From positions 1 through 35,669 of the IMG/VR virus record IMGVR_UViG_3300043395_002906: 35,669 nucleotides of DNA. The stretch is one strand, 5' to 3'. Below the pieces are notes generated by a model. That model searched no databases, was not told the DNA's origin, and was given only the letters and a program-made list of their open reading frames with translations. Made by a program: the position numbers and the translations under genes. Source of the stretch: a virus. Below, piece by piece: positions 347-34,593 of this stretch. Every line of letters begins with the position of its first letter. The stretch's first letter is position 1.

Positions 347-961
347 TCAGGGTGCTGTGGGTGCCACCTGTGACACTTTCTCAACTGCCACAATGTCCTT
401 GTGTCTTTTTCTTTCTTTCTTGTGTATTTTTGAAATACATCCCTTGTGATAACCATTCTCTTTGCACCAATTAACTAAACCACATCTAACAATCTGTCTC
501 CCATCAGAGAATGTTATTCTCCACCATTGTGCTTGTCCATTACCTTCACCAGTTACATTATCTCTTGCTTTTTTACTCATAGGGACACCCTTATTCCAAG
601 GAGATTTGCCCCATCTTGGGTTATTCTTTCCCTTAAGTTTATCACCCACTCTCCTCTTATATTCTTCGGTCTTCATATGATGCTTATCGCCAGAAATAAT
701 AGGAGGAGCATTGCCACCATCAGCAATATTCATTAAAATACCTGTTCCATCGCATTTCTTGCCAAACACTGAAATCATATAAGTTTCGTGTCTAAATGCT
801 TCCTCTTCAGTAAGATTTTGCTTTAGTTTAATTATCCTGCTTCTATCTTTTGGAGGATTGGCATTCTTTCCGTGCCCATAGTTACATCGGTATCCTTTCC
901 CCTTACCAATATAATAAGGCGTCCCATCTTCACGCAGGTAAGCGTAAGTGTAGTATTCCAT
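347..961 (-). CDS. GIY-YIG homing endonuclease with NUMOD3-like motif (copy 1)
   Basis: 204 residues. The N-terminal GIY-YIG nuclease core is seen as YTYAYLRED (residues 4-12) followed by YYIGKGKGYR (16-25), with Arg25 as the expected catalytic arginine. A glutamate-rich helix (LTEEEAFRHE) follows. A NUMOD3-type DNA-binding motif is visible in GKNNPRWGKSPWNKG. The C-terminal segment (WRITFSDGRQ to HKDIVAVE) closely parallels the end of the second GIY-YIG protein in this window. The family makes site-specific double-strand breaks that spread its own gene. It has a private late promoter (984-991) inside a hairpin element. It is free-standing rather than in an intron, as far as can be seen. The start codon is fixed by the promoter and by the motif at the N-terminus. 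Confidence 0.9.
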   Translation of the reverse strand: MEYYTYAYLREDGTPYYIGKGKGYRCNYGHGKNANPPKDRSRIIKLKQNLTEEEAFRHETYMISVFGKKCDGTGILMNIADGGNAPPIISGDKHHMKTEEYKRRVGDKLKGKNNPRWGKSPWNKGVPMSKKARDNVTGEGNGQAQWWRITFSDGRQIVRCGLVNWCKENGYHKGCISKIHKKERKRHKDIVAVEKVSQVAPTAP

Positions 962-983: not shown

Positions 984-991
984 TATTTATA
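984..991 (-). promoter_or_regulatory. T4-type late promoter TATAAATA for GIY-YIG copy 1
   Basis: Perfect match to the T4 late promoter octamer on the minus strand, 22 bases before the ATG of the endonuclease. Most structural genes here use CATAAATA, GATAAATA or AATAAATA; only the two GIY-YIG genes have the canonical first base T. Confidence 0.75.
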
Positions 992-1016
992 GAAGAAAGG
1001 GAGCATTTCTGCCCCC
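992..1016 (-). terminator. Terminator-like hairpin upstream of GIY-YIG copy 1
   Basis: On the minus strand GGGGGCA-GAAA-TGCTCCC forms a 7-pair stem (one G-U) with a GNRA tetraloop, followed by TTTCTTC. It has the shape of a factor-independent terminator with an imperfect T tract. It lies between the late promoter and the far arm of the outer inverted repeat. A very similar hairpin precedes the second GIY-YIG gene. Confidence 0.55.
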
Positions 1017-1050
1017 AATCTCTGCTTAAACAACCACGAATAAGCATCAC

Positions 1051-1058
1051 TATTTATT
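1051..1058 (-). promoter_or_regulatory. Possible late promoter AATAAATA
   Basis: The AATAAATA octamer lies directly after the terminator at 1058-1087, at the usual place for a late promoter in this genome. No convincing gene starts right behind it; the next real gene is the GIY-YIG gene at 961. Confidence 0.4.
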
Positions 1059-10236: not shown

Positions 10237-11274
10237 TCAAGATAAACGATAACGTATAACTACAATTCCAGATCCACCGGTTCCAGCCAACCAAGTTGGT
10301 GGTGTGAGTCCTGCTCCACTACCACCTCCACCAGTGTTTGTAACACCGTTTCTTTGTGGTGATGTTGGTGAAGGATCTCCACTTCTTGGTGGTCCTTTAC
10401 CACCTCCACCTAAACCACCATCACCACTGGAGCCGCCACCGCCACCGGCAAAGTATTGTGCTGGTGTTCCATAGGATGTTGGAACCCAAGGAACTTGAGT
10501 TCCATTACCACCAAATCCATTTGGTGCTGGTGTTCCACTAGCAGATGATCCTCCTCCACCTCCTCCGTGATCGGAAAAGGGTCCACCATAACCACCAGGA
10601 TTTCCTTGTCCCGGAGTTCCTGTTCCACCATTACCTGAAGGTCCTGCACCAACACCTCCACCACCAGAACCACCGGGAGTGCCTAATTGTGCTGCACCCG
10701 CTGCTGTTAGAGCGCCAGCACCTCCACCACCTCCAGTAGAAGTAATGGTGTGAAAAACAGATGGTCCTCCACTAGTTCCATTTGTTGATGATGGAAATGG
10801 ACCTGCTGCACCACCTCCACCAACAGTAATTGGATAAGGTGCAGCCGTTATGGTTAGAGTTCCTGTTCTTAAACCACCAGCACCTCCGCCACCACTAAAA
10901 GCTCTTGGTCCATTTGGTGTTGGTGTTGTACCGGCACTTCCTCCACCACCTCCTCCACCAGCAACCACAAGATAATCTAACTCTCCTGGTGTGCCTGCGT
11001 TTGATACAGTAAACGTACCAGGTCCAGTAAACACAAATAGTTGATAGTTTCCACTGGTTAGTGGAGTTACTGAACCAGTTGCAGTAGCTGTAATTGCAGT
11101 GAAAGAACTTTTACCATACAAGTCACTCATTGAAATCTGAGAAGCGGGAGTTGGTTTTCCTGCAAGATTTCGAACTGCAGCATCATTTAATGCTCTCAAC
11201 GTTGTTGATGGTGAACCAAGTTCAACATTCACCTGCGACATTGATATTGAAGATGGTGGTGATGGTAATACCAT
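10237..11274 (-). CDS. Glycine-rich tail adhesin (copy A)
   Basis: 345 residues. Residues 1-60 form an attachment module seen in two other adhesins here (ISMSQVNVELG, LAGKPTPASQISMSDLYGKS). Residues about 80-110 form a beta segment (YQLFVFTGPGTFTVSNAGTP). The rest is a glycine-rich domain with many GGGG and GGAGG runs, closing with GGSGIVVIRYRLS. Such domains fold into polyglycine-II sandwiches in phage adhesins that bind host outer-membrane proteins or glycans. Targeting of the host surface is inferred. It follows a DUF7936-like small gene with which it forms a unit that is duplicated next door (11642-13039). Confidence 0.85.
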   Translation of the reverse strand: MVLPSPPSSISMSQVNVELGSPSTTLRALNDAAVRNLAGKPTPASQISMSDLYGKSSFTAITATATGSVTPLTSGNYQLFVFTGPGTFTVSNAGTPGELDYLVVAGGGGGGGSAGTTPTPNGPRAFSGGGGAGGLRTGTLTITAAPYPITVGGGGAAGPFPSSTNGTSGGPSVFHTITSTGGGGGAGALTAAGAAQLGTPGGSGGGGVGAGPSGNGGTGTPGQGNPGGYGGPFSDHGGGGGGSSASGTPAPNGFGGNGTQVPWVPTSYGTPAQYFAGGGGGSSGDGGLGGGGKGPPRSGDPSPTSPQRNGVTNTGGGGSGAGLTPPTWLAGTGGSGIVVIRYRLS

Positions 11275-11280
11275 AATTTT

Positions 11281-11613
11281 TTACTCTTTTGTCCAGGGAA
11301 AGTCTTTTTCTTCTACGTATGTTCTATTTGATTTCATCTTATCTAGTTCATAATCAAGATATTGATTTAGAGATTCTTGATTTACTATTTTTTCAATCCA
11401 ACTTACGATAATGTCTAGATCTAATTCATTATAAGGTATGAAAGTATCAGAGTTTAATTGTTGTTCTGTAAAGGTTGTTGATCTTTTAACTGAGGTTACA
11501 ATTCCAGTTTCTTCATCAATACCAATCTTCCTCCAGGTCACTTCAACAACTACATCATCAATTGAATTTCTAGTTTCTTTTGTTAAAGAATGTATTCTCC
11601 AAGTGTATTTCAT
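11281..11613 (-). CDS. Small tail-cluster protein, DUF7936-like (copy A)
   Basis: 110 residues, starting MKYTWRIHSLTKETRNSIDD. It is clearly paralogous to 12701-13039: both share YTWxIHSLTKxT, VxWxKxGI, F(I/V)PYxxL, IIVxWxxxxxxxxS and end near FPW. A small beta sheet followed by helix is likely. Each copy stands directly before a glycine-rich adhesin, so a chaperone, adaptor or baseplate-linked role for that adhesin is plausible but unproven. It has its own late promoter (11636-11643). The DUF number is from memory. Confidence 0.75.
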   Translation of the reverse strand: MKYTWRIHSLTKETRNSIDDVVVEVTWRKIGIDEETGIVTSVKRSTTFTEQQLNSDTFIPYNELDLDIIVSWIEKIVNQESLNQYLDYELDKMKSNRTYVEEKDFPWTKE

Positions 11614-11635
11614 AATGTTTTGATGTCATTAGTGA

Positions 11636-11643
11636 TATTTATT
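11636..11643 (-). promoter_or_regulatory. Late promoter AATAAATA for copy A unit
   Basis: Octamer 22 bases before the ATG of 11281-11613. The TAA stop codon of the upstream adhesin gene (11644-11642) is built into it. Confidence 0.6.
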
Positions 11644-12697
11644 ACACAGCATATCTAATAATTACTATTCCAGATCCTCCAGAACCGGCACGAGAACCAT
11701 TTCCTACTGGTGGTGGATTTGGCTCTGATTGACCAGCACCACCTCCACCACCACCAGTATTTGCAGTTCCATCCGTCGCTATACCTAGACCTGTCGTTCC
11801 AGCACCACCCCCACCAGATCCTCCAGCAGCTCCAGCGAGACCACCAGATCCTCCGCCGCCACCACCTGCGAAATATCTACCAGGTGCAGGCCCTGGAGTT
11901 CCATAAGATGCAGGAACCCAAGTATATGGAAGTCCAACGCCTCCTATACTAGGTGTTGGACCATTGCTTCCGGCACCACCAGCACCTCCACCACCGCCAC
12001 CACGACTAGAACCACCAGCATCTGTAGCAGGTCCTCCTGGATTACCTTGTGATGGCGATGTTGGTGGTGTGTTCCCTGTGCCTCCAGCTCCTGGAGAAAT
12101 ACCTCCAGCACATCCTCCACCAGATCCTCCAGGTCCTCCGGCACCAGGACTTCCTCCTCTAGCACCTCCACCACCACCACCATTAGATGTTATAGTTGAA
12201 AATACCGAGTTAGAACCAGATGTTCCCTGATAGTAAACATAAGTTCCTGGTGTAGTTCCTGTATTTGCTGCCGGTTTAGGTCCTCCTGCACCAACTGTAA
12301 CTGGATAAGATCCCGGTGCGGTTACTGGAAATCCAGTACCATTTCTGAGTCCACCAGCACCTCCACCGCCACCATAATGATTACCTCCTGAACCTCCACC
12401 AGCAACTACAAGATATTCTACAACTGCTCCAGGACCTCCTGTTGCTGTTACTGTAAATGTTCCGGGACCAGTAAAAACGTGAAGCTTATAACCAGATATT
12501 GGAACGATGGTTCCTCCAGTTGCCGTAATTGGAACAACTGAACTCTTACCTCTCAAGTTGTCCATTGAGATAGTACCTGCAGGAACACCAGCAAGTCCTC
12601 TTACGTTTGCTTGATTGAGAGAAATTGTAGTTCCAGATGCGATTCCAAGCTCAATATTAACTTGGTCCATCGTAATTGTACCTGTTGGAAGAACCAT
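11642..12697 (-). CDS. Glycine-rich tail adhesin (copy B)
   Basis: 351 residues with the same plan as copy A: attachment module (ITMDQVNIELGIASGTTISL, then ISMDNLRGKSS), beta segment (YKLHVFTGPGTFTVTATGGP), a long glycine-rich part with GGGGGGG and PGAGGPGGSGG runs, and the closing strand GGSGIVIIRYAV. Start ATG at 12697 has GGAGG nine bases upstream and lies just after the stop of 12701-13039. The adhesin probably displays a variable polyglycine tip. Differences from copy A are mainly in the loops between glycine runs, as expected for receptor specificity. Confidence 0.85.
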   Translation of the reverse strand: MVLPTGTITMDQVNIELGIASGTTISLNQANVRGLAGVPAGTISMDNLRGKSSVVPITATGGTIVPISGYKLHVFTGPGTFTVTATGGPGAVVEYLVVAGGGSGGNHYGGGGGAGGLRNGTGFPVTAPGSYPVTVGAGGPKPAANTGTTPGTYVYYQGTSGSNSVFSTITSNGGGGGGARGGSPGAGGPGGSGGGCAGGISPGAGGTGNTPPTSPSQGNPGGPATDAGGSSRGGGGGGAGGAGSNGPTPSIGGVGLPYTWVPASYGTPGPAPGRYFAGGGGGGSGGLAGAAGGSGGGGAGTTGLGIATDGTANTGGGGGGAGQSEPNPPPVGNGSRAGSGGSGIVIIRYAV

Positions 12698-19752: not shown

Positions 19753-20778
19753 TTATACTGCATTTATGACTATTCTTCCACCTGTACCAGGATTTCCACT
19801 TGTTCCTCTTTGTGGGTCTGATGGATTTCCTACTGTTGTTAAATTGCCACCATATAAAGTTCCTGTTGGGCAATACGCTGGATTATAATATCCAGAACCG
19901 CCGCCGCCACCAAATCCTCCGGCATCGCCACCGCCGCCGCCACCACCAAAATATCCACCACCACCTCCACCACCTCCAGCATCTCCTGGGTCAGTTACAC
20001 CAAGTCCACCATCATATAATCCAGTAACTCCTGAAGTACCATTTGCAATGTCAGCTTTACTACCAGATCCTCTACCACCATTTGTCCCACTTCCTGAAGT
20101 ACCTGTTCTTCTACTTCCAGCACCACCAGCTCCTGCTGCAGATTGAGTTCCTCCAAAACCTCCACCACCAGGAGCAGGAGGAGCATTTTGACCTGTTGTT
20201 CCTCCACCAGCACCACCATATCGAGTTGCGGATTCTCCTCCTCCACCACCTCCAGCAACTACAATTGCAGTATTATTTGAATTTAAAAGAAAACCAGATG
20301 CTGCAGCACCTCCTCCAGCAGCTCTTGTTCCTCCCGTGGAACCAAATCCTCCAGCAAATACTTTATAAGTGGTTCCTCCAGTTACTACGACATTTGCTAC
20401 TGTACATCCTCCAGCACCTCCAGGAGCACTACTACCAAAACCTCCACCACCTCCACCACCCCAAGATTTAACTTGAATTGTTCCTGGAGAATTGAAAGTA
20501 ATCGTATGAACAACACCCGCGTTTGTAGAGGAAACAAAAGTTATAGGAGCACCTGGACTTAATGTTCCAGGTGCTCCAGGAATTGTTGTACTATAAGTTA
20601 AAAAGGAACTCTTACCTCTAAGGTCATTGAATGTAATCAAAGTTCCTGGTGTTGCAAATGCAGGTCCTGCAAGAGACCTTACTGCAGCATCATTAAGAGT
20701 AATTGCAGTAGTGCTTGGATTCCCTAGTTCAATATTAATATCAGAAAATCCAATAGGTCCTACTGAAGGTGTAGTCAT
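19753..20778 (-). CDS. Glycine-rich tail adhesin (copy C)
   Basis: 341 residues. The attachment module (IGFSDINIELGNPSTTAITL, then LITFNDLRGKSSF) matches copies A and B. A beta segment (GVVHTITFNSPGTIQVKSWG) leads into a glycine-rich domain with GGGGGGGFG, GGGGGGGGYFGGGGGGG and similar runs, ending GTGGRIVINAV. The closing strand differs from the GGSGIV(V/I)IRY form of copies A, B and D. Its ATG lies one base after the stop codon of the S74 fibre upstream, so translation is coupled to that fibre. Confidence 0.85.
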   Translation of the reverse strand: MTTPSVGPIGFSDINIELGNPSTTAITLNDAAVRSLAGPAFATPGTLITFNDLRGKSSFLTYSTTIPGAPGTLSPGAPITFVSSTNAGVVHTITFNSPGTIQVKSWGGGGGGGFGSSAPGGAGGCTVANVVVTGGTTYKVFAGGFGSTGGTRAAGGGAAASGFLLNSNNTAIVVAGGGGGGESATRYGGAGGGTTGQNAPPAPGGGGFGGTQSAAGAGGAGSRRTGTSGSGTNGGRGSGSKADIANGTSGVTGLYDGGLGVTDPGDAGGGGGGGGYFGGGGGGGDAGGFGGGGGSGYYNPAYCPTGTLYGGNLTTVGNPSDPQRGTSGNPGTGGRIVINAV

Positions 20779-24375: not shown

Positions 24376-24383
24376 TATTTATT
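24376..24383 (-). promoter_or_regulatory. Late promoter AATAAATA
   Basis: 15 bases before the ATG at 24360; overlaps the TAA stop of the 434-residue adhesin gene. Confidence 0.6.
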
Positions 24384-25686
24384 ATGGATATGGATACCTG
24401 ATTGCAACAATACCGGAACCACCAGACCCTGCAGTTCCTGTTCCATCAAACCCACCACCGCCACCTCCGCCGCCGGTGTTTGTAGTTCCGGAAGTACCGG
24501 GAATAGTTCCTGGTCCATTTCCACCAGCACCACCACCACCTATACCCCCAGGGCCAGGTCCAGCGGTTCCTGCAGGGTCTCCATTTGTGGCTCCACCTCC
24601 ACCACCACCAGCTAAGTATCTGATGTTATTTGAAGGATTTAATTGCCCATAAGGAGACATAAGCCATGGTAGTGCTACTCCAGTTCCACCCGTACCAGAT
24701 ACTCCTGGAGAACCAGATCCACCAGCCCCAGCAGCTCCACCACCGCCTCCTGTAGATCTAGGAGATGAAACACCATTGCCTCCGGGATTTCCTTGGGGAG
24801 GTGTTGTTGGTGGAGTATTACCGGATGCTCCAGTTGTAAATCCAGGAGTAAATGTTGCACCACCACCAGATCCACCAGATGAAGCTGATGTACCTTCCCC
24901 ACCACCTCCACCCCCTCCGGAGGACACAATACTGTTAAATGATGATTGCGATCCATCAGATCCCGTAGAACCCTGAGGATTAGATCCAGCAGCACCACCT
25001 CCACCAACAGATACGGGATAAGATCCTACAGAAAGTCCGGTAAGAGTACCATATCTATAACCACCAGCTCCACCTCCACCTCCACGGTCAGTACCACCTC
25101 CTCCACCACCAGCAACAATGTAGTAGTCTAAAGTTCCTGGTCCTGCATAGGAAACAACAAAAGATCCTGGAGATGTGAAGACGTGAGTTCTAAATCCACC
25201 AGAATCAATAACTGTACCACCAGTTGCCTGTATTGCTGCTATAGATGTATCATTAATAGTAACTGTGGAACTTGTAGCAACAATAGTTCCACTTGTACTA
25301 TCAGTTCTAACTTGCAATTGGAATGATTCTGAACCTTCAGTTGTTACGTCATTTGCTAGTGTCAATGCAACTGAACCAGTTCCACCAGTAACAGTAAAAG
25401 AACCACTAGTAGCACCTCCACTAAAATCAGAAGCATTAATAGTTCCCGAAATAGTGTTTAATGTCCAATATAATGTAGTTCCGTCAGTTATATTTGCAGT
25501 GTTTACTGTAAAAGTAACTGATGAACCCTCATTTAGAGAAGTTGTAGATGGTGTTACAGAATATGCTCTTGCTGATATTGATATAGCTCCACCACCACGA
25601 GCAAATGTATTTCTAAGATAATTTAATAAGTGCCCATCACTCCTATTGTTTGGACCTCTGTTTATATTCGAACTTCTTACACCCAT
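24382..25686 (-). CDS. Glycine-rich tail adhesin with Calx-beta-like domain (copy D), 434 residues
   Basis: The N-terminus (MGVRSSNINRGPNNRSDGHL) differs from the other three adhesins. Residues about 40-150 form a Calx-beta or similar Ig-like domain (VTPSTTSLNEGSSVTFTVNT, TLYWTLNTISGTINASDF, DVTTEGSESFQLQV, VTINDTS). After the linker ATGGTVIDSGGFRTHVFTSP comes the glycine-rich adhesin domain with YIVAGGGGGGTD and many further runs, closing with GGSGIVAIRYPYP. The extra domain may act as spacer or additional binding module. Start has GAGGTAATTAATA upstream. Co-transcribed with 25698-26105. Confidence 0.85.
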   Translation of the reverse strand: MGVRSSNINRGPNNRSDGHLLNYLRNTFARGGGAISISARAYSVTPSTTSLNEGSSVTFTVNTANITDGTTLYWTLNTISGTINASDFSGGATSGSFTVTGGTGSVALTLANDVTTEGSESFQLQVRTDSTSGTIVATSSTVTINDTSIAAIQATGGTVIDSGGFRTHVFTSPGSFVVSYAGPGTLDYYIVAGGGGGGTDRGGGGGAGGYRYGTLTGLSVGSYPVSVGGGGAAGSNPQGSTGSDGSQSSFNSIVSSGGGGGGGEGTSASSGGSGGGATFTPGFTTGASGNTPPTTPPQGNPGGNGVSSPRSTGGGGGAAGAGGSGSPGVSGTGGTGVALPWLMSPYGQLNPSNNIRYLAGGGGGGATNGDPAGTAGPGPGGIGGGGAGGNGPGTIPGTSGTTNTGGGGGGGGFDGTGTAGSGGSGIVAIRYPYP

Positions 25687-32379: not shown

Positions 32380-33108
32380 TTATTTAGTCATTATTTGTTC
32401 AACTTTTATAATATCTTTATGATGACTAGATTTTCTTTTTGATACACTATAAACAGCACCTTTATGGTAATTGTTTTTCTTACAAAATTGTGGGATTGTG
32501 TCTGTGAAAGTATTACCATCAGATAATGTAAACATATAAACTTTACCTTGTTTTCTAAGTTTATTCTTTGTTTCCTCTGTAACAATTCTTCCCCTGTTTG
32601 CCTCGCTTATTTTTTTACGATGTTCTTCTGACTTAGAGACTCCCTTATGTGTTTCACTTATTTTCTTTCTATTTTCTTCAGTATGAGTTTTACCATACAT
32701 AGGATTTTTTTCTTTTGTATACTTTCCCCTTAAAGATTGTCTTTGCTTCTCTCTTGTTTCTTCTGAGGGAGAAACCCCATAAAGAGGATGCTTTTTTCCC
32801 ATTCGAGATAATGCTATTTTTTTACGTTGTTCTGGAGTAGGTTTATAACCTAATGGACCTTCTCCTCCATCACTGAGATTTCTTAATATTCCAGTATTTA
32901 AATCTTTTCTACCGAACATTAAAATATAAAGTTTTTCCAACTCATATGCTTCCAGTTCACTTAAGTTGGATTTTAGTATATAAATTCTTGATTTATCTTT
33001 AGGTGCTTTAATCCTATGATTGGAATAGGCATATGCTCTTCTTTTAGTTCCTTTTCCAATATAATAAGGACTATAATCTTCTCGTAAATATGAGTAAACG
33101 TAATACAT
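32380..33108 (-). CDS. GIY-YIG homing endonuclease with NUMOD3 repeats (copy 2)
   Basis: 242 residues from ATG at 33108. A longer frame to 33189 was rejected because it runs through the terminator and promoter and because MYYVYSYLRED gives the normal N-terminus. GIY-YIG core: YVYSYLRED (3-11) and YYIGKGTKRRAY (15-26). The middle holds several NUMOD3-type DNA-binding repeats (GKKHPLYGVSPSEETR, NPMYGKTHTEENRKKIS, KGVSKSEEHRKKIS). The C-terminal part (YMFTLSDGNTFT to HHKDIIKVEQ) parallels copy 1. AAGAG lies about seven bases before the ATG. It inserts its own control element in front of the 66-residue gene. Confidence 0.9.
   Translation of the reverse strand: MYYVYSYLREDYSPYYIGKGTKRRAYAYSNHRIKAPKDKSRIYILKSNLSELEAYELEKLYILMFGRKDLNTGILRNLSDGGEGPLGYKPTPEQRKKIALSRMGKKHPLYGVSPSEETREKQRQSLRGKYTKEKNPMYGKTHTEENRKKISETHKGVSKSEEHRKKISEANRGRIVTEETKNKLRKQGKVYMFTLSDGNTFTDTIPQFCKKNNYHKGAVYSVSKRKSSHHKDIIKVEQIMTK
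32381..32388 (-). promoter_or_regulatory. Possible late promoter variant ACTAAATA
   Basis: 22 bases before the ATG at 32358; the last codons and stop of the GIY-YIG gene (ACT AAA TAA) form it. The same octamer lies on the other side of the GIY-YIG unit at 33206-33213. Confidence 0.35.
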
Positions 33109-33134
33109 TTTCGCTCTTTTGTTGGGTGCAGTAG

Positions 33135-33142
33135 TATTTATA
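33135..33142 (-). promoter_or_regulatory. T4-type late promoter TATAAATA for GIY-YIG copy 2
   Basis: Perfect octamer directly after a terminator's T tract. The expected start (about 33129) lies at the beginning of the 3' arm of the outer repeat. Confidence 0.8.
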
Positions 33143-33143
33143 C

Positions 33144-33170
33144 AAAAAAAGGAGCATCTCTGCTCCTTTT
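33144..33170 (-). terminator. Factor-independent terminator before GIY-YIG copy 2
   Basis: AAAAGGAGCA (33170-33161) and TGCTCCTTTT (33156-33147) form a perfect 10-pair stem with the GNRA-type tetraloop GAGA, then a T tract of seven including stem bases. It stops read-through from the oxygenase genes upstream. Confidence 0.85.
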
Positions 33171-33205
33171 CTACCTGTGAAGATTGCACCCAACTCAGGC
33201 AGTAT

Positions 33206-33213
33206 TATTTAGT
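33206..33213 (-). promoter_or_regulatory. Possible late promoter variant ACTAAATA
   Basis: Directly behind the stop codon of the 33213-33887 oxygenase gene. Before arrival of the endonuclease it could have served the 66-residue coiled-coil gene. Confidence 0.3.
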
Positions 33214-34564: not shown

Positions 34565-34593
34565 ATTATATATTACTTAAGTTTTTATGTCAA
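34565..34593 (-). promoter_or_regulatory. Consensus sigma-70 promoter for the oxygenase pair
   Basis: TTGACA (34593-34588), exactly 17 bases, TATAAT (34570-34565): twelve of twelve consensus positions. The TGA stop codon of the upstream S74 fibre lies inside the -35 hexamer. Expected start near 34558, leader about 24 bases. Confidence 0.9.

Follow-up and report, generated by a model that had tools for sequence, protein, structure and literature searches.

What is the nested repeat just upstream of a homing-endonuclease gene in this viral genome, and could it determine when the gene is expressed? The window, by which we mean the whole 35.7-kb viral contig that was analyzed, encodes a UvsW-like helicase whose closest relatives are from Synechococcus T4-like phages (at most 57% identity), so the virus is very probably a cyanophage. 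The window has two GIY-YIG homing-endonuclease genes, and copy 2 lies downstream of two oxygenase-type genes. (The second of these belongs to a family that is labelled 'ferrochelatase' in PHROGs; we doubt this label.) An earlier note on this DNA described a terminator and a late promoter within a 10-base inverted repeat before copy 2. We propose that this element is very likely a late-gated leader, or lock, that travels with the homing-endonuclease genes (HEGs) of phages.

Elsewhere in the window, several long glycine-rich proteins of the structural region (10237-12697, 19753-20778, and 24382-25686, minus strand) are alike in make-up and are probably tail or fibre parts.

The element before copy 2

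Every feature of the element is on the minus strand. The parts and their neighbours are:

34565..34593, minus strand: sigma-70-type early promoter of the two oxygenase genes (a sequence match only)
34534-33899, minus strand: first oxygenase-type gene, upstream of the element
33887-33213, minus strand: second oxygenase-type gene, followed by the element and then by copy 2
33206..33213, minus strand: P1, the upstream late-promoter motif ACTAAATA, with a predicted start at 33200; the motif and the oxygenase gene share one base, the last of the stop codon
33200-33144, minus strand: putative P1 RNA (57 nt), with the terminator at its end
33196..33200, minus strand: S1 (GCCTG), the 5' half of a local stem; in read-through RNA it is predicted to pair near the ribosome site
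33185..33194, minus strand: 5' arm A (GTTGGGTGCA), within the loop of the local stem
33173..33177, minus strand: S1' (CAGGT), the 3' half of the local stem
33144..33170, minus strand: intrinsic terminator, with a 10-pair stem (33170-33161/33156-33147), a loop of 4, and a U run
33135..33142, minus strand: P2, the late-promoter motif TATAAATA, with a predicted start at 33129
33121..33130, minus strand: 3' arm A' (TGCACCCAAC), at the 5' end of the predicted P2 mRNA
32380..33108, minus strand: copy 2, a GIY-YIG/NUMOD3 homing-endonuclease gene (242 aa; ATG at 33108)

The arms (33121-33130 and 33185-33194) form an inverted repeat with 10 of 10 pairs, and the two halves of the terminator stem (33147-33156 and 33161-33170) also pair at 10 of 10 positions around a 4-base loop, and a T run follows. 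These perfect repeats and TATAAATA are where the earlier note had placed them, and the 3' arm does end 12 bases before the start codon. The early oxygenase promoter that it invoked is present as a sequence (TTGACA-17-TATAAT, 12/12, at 34593-34565 on the minus strand). It had also put the predicted late start, 33129, at the beginning of the 3' arm; this position is indeed six bases past the octamer, but it is the second base of the arm.

The read-through leader was expected to fold, and in silico it does: the read-through strand has a minimum free energy of -38.3 kcal/mol (z = -5.6), and 0 of 200 shuffled sequences were as good. The score of the enclosing helix was equalled by 0 of 300 shuffles. 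In the predicted RNA fold, the long helix exceeds 10 pairs, as bases of 33200-33197 pair beside the ribosome site. The uninterrupted helix stops 12 nt before the AUG. The left edge of the element is further upstream than the arms, at the P1 octamer (33213-33206). The core of the earlier picture, the lock, is well supported by comparison with other leaders (below), but P1 and the local stem-loop around the 5' arm had been missed.

The octamer alone is not significant: TATAAATA is found 2 times in the window versus 2.25 expected. Each of the two GIY-YIG genes has one of these occurrences 22-26 nt before its start codon. Neither ATG is preceded by a GGAGG-type Shine-Dalgarno sequence, and the region that would be hidden is A-rich. 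Without a strong Shine-Dalgarno sequence, exactly what the helix hides is less clear than in I-TevI.

A second element, with different arms, before copy 1

Copy 1 has an element of its own:

347..961, minus strand: copy 1, a GIY-YIG homing-endonuclease gene (204 aa)
984..1058, minus strand: copy 1 element, the second element of the window
1058-1051, minus strand: P1 AATAAATA, with a predicted start at 1045
1045-1041, minus strand: S1
1043-1030, minus strand: arm A
1028-1024, minus strand: S1'
1016-1010/1005-999, minus strand: terminator-like stem
991-984, minus strand: P2 TATAAATA, with a predicted start at 978
980-967, minus strand: 3' arm A', just after the element

Upstream of the gene (961), the order is arm, stem-loop with a T-rich tail, TATAAATA, arm, and ATG. 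The layout is like that of copy 2, but the sequences of the arms differ (TTATTCGTGGTTGT/ATAACCACGGATAA versus GTTGGGTGCA/TGCACCCAAC).

The layout recurs before unrelated nuclease genes

Searches of public viral contigs with both GIY-YIG proteins gave 99 loci with 64 distinct leaders. In 59 of these 64 leaders, P2 (NATAAATA) is 24-40 nt before the ATG, and 57 of the 59 P2-bearing leaders have arms around it. The 3' arm begins 2-5 nt past the octamer in nearly all leaders, and a terminator (a GC-containing stem, then a U run) is present in 51 of 55. As controls, we used leaders of other genes on the same contigs that have the late-promoter motif (n = 64). The median arm score is 30 for the homology-selected leaders versus 13 for the controls. 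Scores of 22 or above were reached by 7 of the 64 control leaders, and these high scorers are mostly nuclease genes themselves.

We also scanned for the layout, requiring just P1, P2, and an ATG. The scan hit more than 100 places, which are mostly the element, and we retrieved 55 of them. Together with the homology set, this gave 104 distinct elements; since these come partly from a pattern that demands P1, the conservation of P1 should be read from the homology set only. At 51 of the 55 layout-scan places there is a readable downstream gene, and these genes look like homing endonucleases or fragments of them. The downstream nucleases include several GIY-YIG subfamilies, HNH_3, and NUMOD3 proteins with an HNH-like HHIFP motif, and there is a weak Endonuclease_7 match among the downstream proteins. 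(The Pfam scan covered ten representative proteins, of which three had no Pfam match.) Seven elements, no two with the same arms, are present in S-SRM01 (Kyanoviridae), and the element is also found in B23 and MC09. The covariance models of Rfam gave no match to the element; one chance hit was below threshold and away from it. Judging from these comparisons, the element is a widespread and previously uncatalogued RNA control module that is common to unrelated nuclease families.

The GIY-YIG genes at L109 (S-SRM01), L110 (B23), and L113 (Sf-CH5) are labelled 'translation initiation factor 2', which is very probably a misannotation.

Three helices covary

Across the 104 distinct elements, 99% of cognate arms have a score of at least 22 (median 30), versus 7.6% of foreign arms (median 13). 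There are 47 distinct GC-rich arm 7-mers. In one class of elements, S1/S1' and the terminator are near-identical and the arm pair has been re-coded repeatedly. A covariance model of S1/S1' plus the terminator had 105 matches. In the alignment of these, 91% of the cells are paired (74% if shuffled), there are 258 double-change cells (72 if shuffled), and the covariation score is 0.57 versus 0.26 (slid versions, 0.16 or less); the alignment was fitted to its own model, so these values are biased toward that model. By these comparisons, all three helices (the arms, S1/S1', and the terminator) covary across the family. This covarying pairing, the layout, and the promoter motifs with their spacing are direct observations. 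A chance origin of the element is ruled out by the z-score of the fold, the shuffles, and the family-wide covariation. What the earlier note described for one locus, an arm pair that encloses a late promoter and can fold in read-through RNA alone, with a terminator as a second barrier, recurs in about 100 leaders with compensated arms, as well as in copy 1.

P1 and a putative short RNA

P1 is present in 57 of the 59 homology-selected leaders, versus 3 of 64 controls and 2.7% of shuffled segments. It is upstream of P2, mostly by 60-82 nt. The published late promoter of cyanophages is NATAAATA (PMC2984593). P2 fits this motif and its spacing, and P1 is N(A/C)TAAATA. In the window, TAAATA is found 38 times on the coding strand versus 10 times on the other, and about 20 of the coding-strand instances, in ATAAATA and CTAAATA forms, are 20-37 nt before gene starts. 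In 89 of 104 elements, the predicted P1 start is at most 1 base from stem S1, and 99 elements have a purine there. For P2, the predicted start is a purine in 101 elements and is within 2-3 nt of A' in nearly all.

The stretch from P1 to the U run holds a stem-loop with arm A in the loop and then the terminator (median 56 nt to the edge of P2). P1, the loop, and the terminator together look like a gene for a small RNA (~57 nt) that would be antisense to the 5' end of the P2 mRNA. The loop of this RNA is complementary to the start region of the downstream mRNA, as in C4-type antisense RNAs. The predicted duplex between the short RNA and its own P2 leader averages -20.7 kcal/mol, versus -10.7 with foreign leaders. 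Furthermore, the predicted partner of S1 depends on the transcript: S1 pairs locally when the short RNA is folded by itself (482/520 bases), and distally in the read-through RNA (441/520). In these folding models, S1 is a switch segment. Together, P1 and the stem-loop with the 5' arm in its loop point to a short antisense RNA, which might target the late mRNA in trans. The P1 unit may have an antisense role, which we regard as a live hypothesis rather than a conclusion. The earlier note had stated that late RNA lacks the 5' arm and cannot fold. This holds for the P2 RNA, in cis only; given P1, not all late RNA need lack the arm.

We also noticed that the P1 motif, as TAAATAA, frequently contains part or all of the upstream gene's stop codon (33215-33206 in the window; L029, L039, L053, L065, and others). 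This overlap suggests that the left edge of the cassette is at the 3' ends of genes.

A few units are incomplete. L357 (IMGVR_UViG_3300049043_000066: 44464-44538, minus strand) is an orphan with P1, the arm stem-loop, and the terminator intact, and without P2, the second arm, or an endonuclease; it has no target in its contig. Downstream of it are a sigma-70-like promoter and then an oxygenase gene. In the same contig, L355 and L356 have broken-looking endonuclease genes and a broken P1 as well (TAATATA for TAAATA); their arms, terminator, and P2 are still intact. L360 (IMGVR_UViG_3300025732_000037: 63783-63852, minus strand) is a decayed unit that ends inside the terminator and is followed by a gene for a Dam-like DNA methylase.

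Other leader types in related phages

Another scaffold, type II, reads GTGGG-CA-GCAAC-arm-GTTGC-GTAAGT-CCCAC, then TAAATA, with an arm at the ATG. Here GTGGGcaGCAAC-arm-GTTGCgtaagtCCCAC is followed by a late-promoter motif and then by the complementary arm, which immediately adjoins the ATG of a GIY-YIG or other nuclease gene. The first arm is in the apical loop. Type II loci are L205-L280 (e.g. L206, L228, L250), L199 (S-SRM01), and L113 (Sf-CH5). The type II layout is present at 28 of the 30 ORF-bearing places of its 14-mer, which also matches unrelated DNA (34 of 64 places lack a fitting ORF). P1 is not conserved in type II scaffolds, which rules it out as a universal component.

Other GIY-YIG genes of these phages (L004, L011, and L016, with gene starts at 2905, 2862, and 821) have a simple I-TevI-like hairpin around TATAAATA, without a terminator or P1. 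A homologous site without a HEG, L102, has a terminator plus TATAAATA before a structural gene, and arms are absent.

Proposed mechanism and alternatives

From these features we infer transcription from P1 and P2, termination, silencing of translation, and action of the P1 RNA in trans, as follows. Early in infection, read-through RNA, probably from the putative sigma-70 promoter (34593-34565), would run toward the endonuclease gene and meet the terminator. RNA that passes the terminator and enters the gene would fold A onto A', and this helix, lengthened by S1, would cover the region before the start codon, so that little endonuclease would be made early. The predicted unpaired fraction around the start codon is 0.32 in read-through RNA versus 0.62 in P2 RNA, and it is lower in read-through RNA for 100 of 104 elements. 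Late in infection, P2, which lies between the arms, would start RNA at A', giving a transcript that lacks A and is open to translation. P1 should also give the ~57-nt RNA, which would be complementary to the 5' end of the P2 mRNA and may dampen its translation, possibly in trans. Taken in full, our proposal is that cyanophage HEGs of unrelated families share a portable module: a same-strand small-RNA gene immediately upstream, driven by a late promoter and ended by a terminator, with a loop dedicated to antisense pairing with the 5' end of the HEG's own late mRNA. The same complementarity would be the cis lock in read-through RNA, and these selfish genes would carry their own antisense brake. 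We advance this full version tentatively, at somewhat less than an even chance.

A cis lock only, like that of T4, has close to an even chance. By this account, read-through RNA is locked by the A/A' helix; P1 would be an ordinary late promoter that is tied to the insertion site or only adds late read-through RNA, S1/S1' would be a folding aid, and there would be no trans RNA. After all, I-TevI, segB, and mobE of T4-type phages manage without P1 (PMC2988022), simple hairpins are also present in these cyanophages, and type II scaffolds have the arm and P2 without a conserved P1. Nor is the orthogonality of arms within genomes significant (5 cross-pairings versus 7.0 expected, P = 0.33), and we dropped it as proof of trans action. 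Against this account, P1 is present in 57 of 59 leaders, with its predicted start on the first base of S1; S1' is unneeded for a cis lock yet covaries with S1; and a loop that holds arm A, with a terminator after it, is how a small RNA would be laid out.

We also considered that the inverted repeat might act as DNA, either as an operator bound by the endonuclease or as the remnant of a homing site. I-TevI does bind an operator over its own late promoter and represses it (PMC2988022), and P2 is flanked by the repeat. But many G-U pairs in the arms and stems preserve the symmetry of RNA, not of DNA; close relatives re-code the arms while keeping the scaffold and layout; and the layout is common to unrelated nuclease folds. 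This makes a DNA element unlikely as the explanation, although the arms could conceivably have a DNA-level role in addition to their RNA role. Far less probable still is an ordinary terminator and late promoter between two transcription units, with arms that arose by chance. Such a site does exist, at the HEG-less L102, and it lacks arms, whereas arm pairing with compensating changes is found in about 100 elements and is rare in control late leaders. The family comparison refutes this idea. Antitermination, with A/A' competing with the terminator, was also rejected: the arms lie clear of the terminator stem, and a single predicted fold contains both helices.

Our proposal of a late-gated lock suggests that the late gating of HEGs, a feature of only a few T4-type genes as known before, depends in cyanophages on a standard portable module, which is common to unrelated nuclease families and is present as many as seven times in one genome. 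An antisense RNA from P1, if one is made, would represent a new family of RNAs and clearly exemplify a selfish gene with its own RNA brake. The freely re-coded arms would make simple regulators.

Comparison with known systems

In the leader of T4 gene e (lysozyme), as here, late promoters lie inside the 5' strand of an inhibitory structure (PMC3014915). Gene e is not mobile, unlike the genes that carry our element, and a nested terminator and loop unit are not described there. CfrI of cyanophage S-PM2 is also a cyanophage RNA beside a homing-endonuclease gene (PMC12197685). Unlike our element, CfrI is ~225 nt and antisense to psbA, and its design is different.

In phages P1 and P7, c4 is upstream of ant on the same strand, and C4 is processed from a shared transcript. 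The loop sequences of C4 antisense RNA are complementary to the ribosome-site region of the ant mRNA (PMC12197685), much as proposed for our P1 unit. Unlike our element, C4 controls immunity. Also, a late promoter and a terminator of its own seem to belong to the P1 unit, which is only a candidate for action in trans. The two have no sequence relation, and Rfam finds none.

The closest parallel is with T4 I-TevI, segB, and Aeh1 mobE, which have hairpin-gated late leaders (PMC2988022). The earlier note had drawn this likeness to I-TevI, and the comparative evidence points to the same principle. As in the T4-type HEG leaders (I-TevI, I-TevII, I-TevIII, segB, and Aeh1 mobE; PMC2988022), the late promoter is between the arms, a homing endonuclease is downstream, and the helix forms only in upstream-initiated RNA, where it hides the initiation region (here, in silico). 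A consensus Shine-Dalgarno sequence within the helix, which would be expected of a leader of that type, is missing here. The P1-loop-terminator unit was not found in the leader sequences of I-TevI and segB. And unlike those leaders, which are simple hairpins as described, our element encloses a terminator between its arms and has, further upstream, another late-promoter motif and a stem-loop holding the 5' arm in its loop; this one layout serves unrelated nuclease families.
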